Positions 25,979 through 26,510 of a stretch of DNA of 64,000 bases are shown piece by piece. Where the stretch lies: NCBI RefSeq assembly GCF_009882935.1, contig NZ_WTVA01000015.1, forward strand, positions 310,001 through 374,000, in the 5' to 3' direction. The DNA comes from Sneathiella chungangensis. Lineage in GTDB: Bacteria; Pseudomonadota; Alphaproteobacteria; Sneathiellales; Sneathiellaceae. Below the pieces are notes generated by a model that was not told the DNA's origin, did no database searches, and was given only the letters and a program-made list of their open reading frames with translations. The position numbers were made by a program, and so were the translations under genes. How positions within the stretch are numbered: the stretch's first letter is position 1; the number at the start of each line of letters is the position of its first letter.

Positions 25979-26033
25979 CCTCCGCGCCTCACTCCTCAGC
26001 CGTCTCATAACTGCAAATCATTCTTAAAAAAGA

Positions 26034-26062
26034 TTGACGCCCGGGCCCTCATATTATTTAAT
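26034..26062 (+). promoter_or_regulatory. Sigma-70-type promoter for the 55-codon gene
   Basis: TTGACG (26034-26039) and TTTAAT (26057-26062) are separated by 17 bases, matching the sigma-70 consensus in 5 of 6 positions each. A Fur-type box begins 3 bases downstream of the -10 element and another lies just upstream of the -35. Confidence 0.6.
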
Positions 26063-26064
26063 AA

Positions 26065-26079
26065 TGCAAATCATTCGCA
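26065..26079 (+). promoter_or_regulatory. Fur-family (7-1-7) operator, with an upstream half-match
   Basis: TGCAAATCATTCGCA is a 7-1-7 palindrome with one imperfect pair, the layout of Fur/Mur boxes and similar to TGCAAAT-type boxes of alphaproteobacteria. It covers the expected transcription start. A second copy, TGCAAATCATTCTTA, is at 26012-26026, upstream of the -35 box. Repression by an iron- or manganese-sensing Fur protein is inferred. Confidence 0.55.
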
Positions 26080-26095
26080 ATTACTGGAGCCCATT

Positions 26096-26263
26096 ATGAT
26101 TCGAATCAGGTACCTTCCTCCCGCCGAGTTGGGATCGCTACTTGTGAAAGTGGCGGAAGAACAGCGGGCGACGCGCCTGTCATGTGACCGGCCGGTCGAG
26201 CCATATGGTCATTCGCAAATGCTTTATGTCATTCAAGGCCAAAAAGAAGGGCGGCCCCGGTAA
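26096..26263 (+). CDS. Small 55-residue protein under a Fur-type box
   Basis: ATG 26096 is preceded by GGAG at ideal distance. The product begins MIRIRYLPPAELGSLLVKV and ends GQKEGRPR; the stop falls inside the terminator stem. It has one cysteine and two histidines and no signal or membrane segment. It does not look like HemP, FeoA or bacterioferritin-associated ferredoxin. A promoter with two Fur-type boxes upstream and a terminator immediately after make a complete single-gene unit. Function unknown; a role in iron or manganese limitation is inferred from the operator only. Confidence 0.62.
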   Translation: MIRIRYLPPAELGSLLVKVAEEQRATRLSCDRPVEPYGHSQMLYVIQGQKEGRPR

Positions 26264-26285
26264 AACCGGAACCGCCCATTTCTTT
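26249..26285. terminator. Bidirectional Rho-independent terminator
   Basis: GGGCGG (26249-26254) pairs with CCGCCC (26272-26277), and CCGGT (26257-26261) with ACCGG (26265-26269). A T-rich stretch follows on the plus strand (26278-26287), and the AAAAAGAA at 26241-26248 gives T-rich sequence on the minus strand. It ends the 55-codon gene and the convergent basic-protein gene. Confidence 0.8.
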
Positions 26286-26303
26286 TCCGTTTAGGCTCGC
26301 GCC

Positions 26304-26510
26304 TCAGGCAGCGGTACGGGTCGCAGCCTGAACTTTCTTCAACTGCCGCCGTGCTGCATGGCGGCCATGCGCCTTCAGATTCATTTTACGGGCAGCGCGC
26401 TGCTGGTTGGACCGGCTGTTCTTGGTCAGTCCGTCGCCGCTTCCGCCGCCGCCTTTTTTCCGGCTCTTGCCGCCCTGGTTGCGGCCATTCCGTGCTGATC
26501 TCGCAGTCAT
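26304..26510 (-). CDS. Small, highly basic protein
   Basis: A 68-residue protein, starting at ATG 26510, with about a third Lys and Arg plus Gly and Ser, and no cysteine. It contains a GGKSRKKGGGGSG segment and a C-terminal Ala/Lys/Arg-rich helix, HAARRQLKKVQAA. Composition suggests nucleic acid binding (histone-H1-like or ribosome-associated) but no family is recognised. It is transcribed leftward into the shared terminator at 26249-26285. An upstream in-frame start at 26534 is possible. Confidence 0.55.
   Translation of the reverse strand: MTARSARNGRNQGGKSRKKGGGGSGDGLTKNSRSNQQRAARKMNLKAHGRHAARRQLKKVQAATRTAA

Follow-up and report, generated by a model that had tools for sequence, protein, structure and literature searches.

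The question raised by this locus is whether positions 26011 to 26286 of the Sneathiella chungangensis DNA analysed here (64 kb in all, hereafter the window) form a complete, metal-responsive one-gene transcription unit and, if so, what the small protein that it encodes might do. The segment had originally been predicted to be a complete mini-unit under Fur-type boxes, and every element then named is present between these positions: two Fur-type operators around a promoter, then GGAG as ribosome-binding site, the frame of 55 codons and, at the end, a terminator.

Specifically, the predicted sigma-70-like promoter, TTGACG-17-TTTAAT, lies at 26034–26062 (plus strand; -35 at 26034–26039, -10 at 26057–26062), and ATTGAC together with TTAATAATG is unchanged at the promoter in all nine aligned loci. 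A consensus scanner did not report it because the scanner requires an A at the second position of the -10 element; its output was one site on the opposite strand, at its own chance level. The ribosome-binding site, GGAG (26086–26089, plus strand), is located 6 nt 5' of the start codon of the 55-codon protein gene, which occupies 26096–26263 of the plus strand including the stop (ATG at 26096, TAA at 26261–26263), as had been described. A 12-nt palindrome, TGATTCGAATCA, was also seen by eye at 26097–26108, over codons 1 to 5, and a DNA site or a start-codon hairpin is possible there.

The promoter is indeed bracketed by two copies of TGCAAATCATTC, at 26012 and 26065, the only ones in the 64-kb window, where exact 12-mer pairs 12–100 bp apart number only three in all. 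The upstream Fur-type box, CTGCAAATCATTCTTAA (26011–26027, plus strand), is placed just 5' of the -35 element and matches the genus palindrome at 12 of 16 positions, and the downstream one, ATGCAAATCATTCGCAA (26064–26080, plus strand), overlaps the likely transcription start and matches it at 14 of 16. The second TGCAAATCATTC copy sits within TGCAAAT-C-ATTCGCA (26065–26079), which had been called a near-perfect 7-1-7 palindrome and in which, by eye, six of the seven arm positions are complementary.

Relatives with conserved boxes upstream, to which the original prediction had pointed as a check, do exist within the genus. By profile searches guided also by the upstream exonuclease gene, which 22 of 24 genomes yielded, the 55-codon frame was found at the same locus in 16/24 Sneathiella genomes, with a product length of 49–68 aa, and both boxes are present in 13 of these 16 loci. 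In the same 13, window included, the two boxes jointly beat dinucleotide shuffles (p 0.003–0.007 each), in a test that controls for composition only, since the box consensus was read from these same loci. The three loci that fail it (G003, G010 and G011; p 0.43, 0.37 and 0.20, respectively) are those with a weak or absent upstream box; each reaches 14–15 of 19 positions against the general Fur-box consensus, a figure without shuffle control. By best match, the box starts are 53 bp apart in nine of the 16 loci, including the window, and 47–51 bp apart in four more.

Over codons 2–24 of the ten closest orthologs, pS is 0.70 and pN 0.20 (uncorrected for multiple hits), a ratio of 0.29, and the other two frames of the same DNA give pN/pS of 1.31 and 1.81. 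Synonymous and nonsynonymous changes, whose equality had been named beforehand as the case against the gene, are far from equal in this frame. The in-frame ratio is 0.45 for all 16 orthologs; it amounts to 0.50 and 0.56 over codons 25–44 in two subgroups and to 0.57 and 0.91 over the last codons, where the terminator constrains the DNA as well. Such values mark a protein gene whose first half is conserved, and we conclude that the 55-codon frame is almost certainly translated. That it is a chance or decaying frame devoid of function, as its lack in 6/24 genus genomes and its poorly conserved second half might suggest, appears extremely improbable in view of the in-frame selection, the 16 open copies and the conserved promoter and boxes.

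The ortholog alignments define a core of about 24 first residues, followed by a drifting tail; in the alignments A2, A3 and A4 this N-terminal core corresponds to codons 1–24 (26096–26167, plus strand). In the nine closest sequences M1, I2, I4, R5, L7, P9, L15, K18, E21, E22 and C30 are invariant, and in the 16-row alignment M1 and R5 alone remain so, with L7, L15 and E22 nearly so. The loss of C30 in the latter disfavours a metal site built on this residue. AlphaFold2, run with the 16 rows, predicts a short segment and one helix (residues 9–29), with the first 30 residues confident and the tail at low confidence (overall mean pLDDT 68.8, pTM 0.39). All 16 orthologs are basic, with isoelectric points of 7.9–11.8. 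A membrane anchor was considered and is not supported: the hydrophobic moment of residues 9–26 is 0.11–0.30 in 15 of 16 orthologs and 0.45 in one, and no transmembrane-like stretch was seen by eye in the 16.

The 3' end of the unit is a stem-loop followed by a T run (26249–26286), identified by a scanner and by the predicted fold and common to the convergent gene. The scanner reports this terminator on the minus strand only, where the T run is stronger; in the predicted fold of the plus strand the stem is followed by TTTCTTTT. The stop codon had been assigned to the terminator stem: the terminator is there, but in the predicted fold of its stem (26249–26277) the stop codon falls at the apical loop and only its T is paired. 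Folding of a ten-row alignment that covered the 3' end of the unit gave the terminator as the consensus structure; three of ten pairs have two-sided changes, broken cells occur in four, and the covariation term is close to zero.

Being short, with one gene and a terminator to itself, the unit could also act through a RyhB-like or dual-function RNA that pairs with mRNAs for iron-using proteins and in which the frame is secondary. Against this stand the pS of 0.70 over codons 2–24 and the synonymous variation in most of the core codons. Codon 3 is the exception: it is CGA in 8/8 of the closest copies with arginine there (of ten), none of the 28 pairs differing. This pattern allows for some local constraint near the start, as the RNA reading would have it, and less readily for an extended pairing seed within the core. 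At gathering scores, Rfam returned one tRNA as the sole match in the window and no RyhB-like family; to our knowledge, no RyhB has been described in alphaproteobacteria. With variable synonymous sites in most core codons and a conserved structure that coincides with the terminator, the dual-function RNA raised in the original prediction finds little support, and we regard an RNA as the main product of the locus as improbable.

As to the genomic context, the upstream neighbour encodes a DnaQ-like exonuclease, and downstream, on the opposite strand, there is a frame for a very basic protein of 68 aa (26304–26510, minus strand; starting MTARSAR and containing the stretch GRNQGGKSRKKGGGG) and a gene for an SCP2 protein. 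The 68-aa frame, which has no match in Pfam or NCBIfam, is preserved with hardly a change at 21 of the 22 genus loci, including those that lack the 55-codon frame; at the remaining one (G006) the contig breaks off inside it. A leader peptide of a downstream gene was ruled out by the intervening terminator and by the orientation of the next frame, which is convergent. We found no partner gene for the small protein.

This neighbourhood bears on a further explanation, in which the same protein gene yields a modulator of a metal transporter or exporter rather than a factor acting on iron use or RNA. A precedent is MntS of Escherichia coli, a small protein of metal shortage suggested to inhibit MntP (PMC4361602). 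It resembles the window protein in size and in its metal-box control, a likeness by description only, and differs in being manganese-controlled and in belonging to a different host group. No transporter gene adjoins the 55-codon gene in the window, which speaks against this explanation, and we consider it rather unlikely.

Within Sneathiella, a genus of marine bacteria, the gene is patchily distributed. It is lacking in six of the 24 genomes (G004, G006, G008, G014, G018 and G023), in which the exonuclease gene is followed by the terminator and then by the convergent gene. G009 and G020, both less than 90% complete, yielded neither frame nor exonuclease and were left unjudged; when the count is restricted to genomes with completeness of 90% or more and contamination of 5% or less, 12 of 17 carry the frame. 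The carriers include S. litorea DP05 and S. sedimenti CAU 1612, according to the A5 scan of named genomes. An exonuclease tree of 21 rows was poorly resolved (three of 18 inner branches starred); gain and loss on it required four changes in the best tree and two to four over the bootstrap trees, values matched by equally low ones in 52–58 of 500 shuffles. One origin of the gene followed by losses is possible from these trees.

Searches outside the genus returned little. The window protein alone, searched singly, matched nine of 95 genomes including its own, all within the genus. No Pfam family was found for it at E up to 10, and the 16 members gave five weak, unrelated families (best E 0.038). 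The assertion that the product resembles none of HemP, FeoA and Bfd, which are likewise small and iron-linked, agrees with this, as their Pfam profiles matched neither the window protein nor any of the 16 members at E up to 10. NCBIfam provided no convincing match to the window protein, PHROGs none for the window and L011 proteins, and the PDB none by fold and none by the sequence profile A2. Among plasmids, the L011 and L008 proteins were unmatched, and the L052 protein gave three unrelated weak matches only (E 2–6).

When A2 was run over 385 genomes of the class, four matched at E ≤0.01: the window's own genome, one genus member, G388 and G052. The G052 match lies inside a 308-codon frame and was discarded as chance. 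With A4, 119 of the 385 genomes matched at E up to 0.5, mostly over short stretches and many in long frames; 26 loci (L051–L076) and one more place in G171 were inspected, and these matches were read as chance except for two places in G171 that looked like relatives. A4 includes L011 and L030–L035, and the strong A4 scores of those loci are therefore not independent; the independent scores are E 0.0078 for G388 (A2) and 0.0035 and 0.007 for G171 (A4), weak values for 385 genomes.

G388, which belongs to another family, encodes a 51-aa protein at locus L011, and a Fur-box match of 17 of 19 positions precedes its start by 18–36 nt. By start, length and Fur box, it makes a convincing putative relative. 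At L011, about 15–60 nt 5' of the frame on the minus strand, an inverted repeat of 12 nt, GACAAATCTCCT / AGGAGATTTGTC, stands on either side of the Fur-type box and by eye takes in the ribosome-binding site. The eight other genomes in the order of G388 had no match, and its protein, searched against 21 genomes of the class, found itself only. G171 and G418, two species that belong to one other genus, have two similar frames each, which resemble the N-terminal core (M-L-I-L-R-N-L-D-P...) (L079:3593-5764 and L078:738-3046 in G171; L120 and L122 in G418), with no Fur box. In G171 both frames are found between AphA_like (PF14557) and DUF2325 (PF10087) genes, with an imelysin gene near one of them. 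These frames are likely to be relatives. In the order of G171, 15 of 17 genomes had no match (G171 itself being in the model), and G024, the sole genome in the window's order that comes from a different genus, had none. In conclusion, the gene is real, of restricted spread and without a family in the libraries searched.

To place the boxes in a wider context, the S. chungangensis genome (3.81 Mb in 15 contigs) was searched with the box pattern. At up to three mismatches it occurs at 22 places, compared to six for the reversed control, and the downstream box of the unit, with two mismatches, is among the four best sites, two of which fall inside frames. Of 15 places read, with a rough longest-frame rule to assign them, nine are inside frames and six intergenic. 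The intergenic ones comprise the box at this gene and those before a piece of TonB receptor whose closest family is that for heme/hemoglobin, at the bacterioferritin (bfr)–bfd junction, at an ABC-type solute-binding protein gene of ambiguous substrate assignment, at a gene for a protein matching no family, and near another ABC-type binding protein gene (judged by eye); two of the six adjoin genes with no evident iron tie. One Fur-type box, with three mismatches, lies at L018:1501-1517; the frame 3' of it encodes 248 aa, starts in a signal-like manner and had no convincing match in Pfam or NCBIfam.

Three Fur-family proteins are encoded in the genome, nearest to Fur, Irr and Zur, respectively, an assignment in which only the Irr match exceeds its NCBIfam cut-off and which compares matched pieces, not whole frames. 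Alternatively, the boxes could serve a Mur that senses manganese, or Irr, the signal being manganese or haem status. Fur proteins of alphaproteobacteria can act as Mur, and Irr is encoded here above its cut-off. The box at this gene is, we presume, unlike the Irr motif, and the same box type stands before a heme-receptor-like gene and bfd; iron and Fur would therefore fit better than manganese or Irr, and control by Mur or Irr seems quite unlikely. We consider that putative Fur-type iron control of the 55-codon gene is likely, and that the regulatory switch of the unit, as read from its DNA, is well supported on paper. In a Caulobacter study, a palindromic Fur site of 19 bp was reported solely for genes that iron and Fur both control (PMC3751524).

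Starting from the observed anatomy, conservation, selection on the protein and occurrence of the same box type near iron genes, we infer Fur as the regulator, iron as the signal and the cytoplasm as the putative place of action. The reading that we favour, and hold to be reasonably probable, is that Fur represses this monocistronic gene and that its product, a small, basic and probably cytoplasmic protein, serves as an adaptor in iron starvation. With enough iron, Fur-Fe would occupy both operators, 53 bp or about five helical turns apart, and block RNA polymerase; once iron becomes scarce, transcription would yield an mRNA of some 215 nt for translation. The segment and helix at the N-terminus (about residues 1–29) might then, as a guess, dock onto a partner, the basic tail staying flexible, and the protein would thereby tune iron use or uptake, the direction of the effect being equally a guess. 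Against the adaptor reading stand the three of 16 loci that fail the two-box test, the two of the four best box sites that fall inside frames, the two intergenic sites next to genes with no evident iron tie, the low overall confidence of the structure model, the lack of a partner gene among the genes found and the six genus genomes that live without the gene. Small proteins of metal starvation are easily overlooked by gene finders and family libraries, and, if iron sparing is the case, the gene would show how an alphaproteobacterium spares iron. Since the unit is compact, its switch clear on paper and the genus provided with named strains, the proposal is directly testable.

Regarding known systems, no Fur-controlled small protein of Sneathiella is among the matches listed for open-licence full texts, where Sneathiella and Fur together led to a taxonomy study only. 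Within the alphaproteobacteria, Caulobacter CC0681 and CC0682 are small genes repressed by iron and Fur and suggested to act in iron sparing (PMC3751524); they are alike by description only, and a later paper describes CC0681–CC0684 as a bacteriocin gene cluster (PMC5380434). A further comparison is with FbpA/B/C of Bacillus subtilis, small basic proteins under Fur regulation for which a role as RNA chaperones has been suggested, RNA binding by FbpB being described as without experimental evidence (PMC7430163). A broader view, which we put forward as doubtful, is that a scattered alphaproteobacterial adaptor family, with a fixed docking helix and a free basic tail and with the Fur-boxed copy of G388 and the unboxed pairs next to DUF2325 genes in G171 and G418 as its outlying members, might be an independent counterpart of FbpA/B/C that steers post-transcriptional iron sparing. 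FbpA/B/C work with the RNA FsrA, the window protein is not known to have such an RNA, and the likeness is by description only. It is a likeness of kind, not kinship: small basic proteins (49–68 aa here, 48 residues in FbpB) under Fur-type control.
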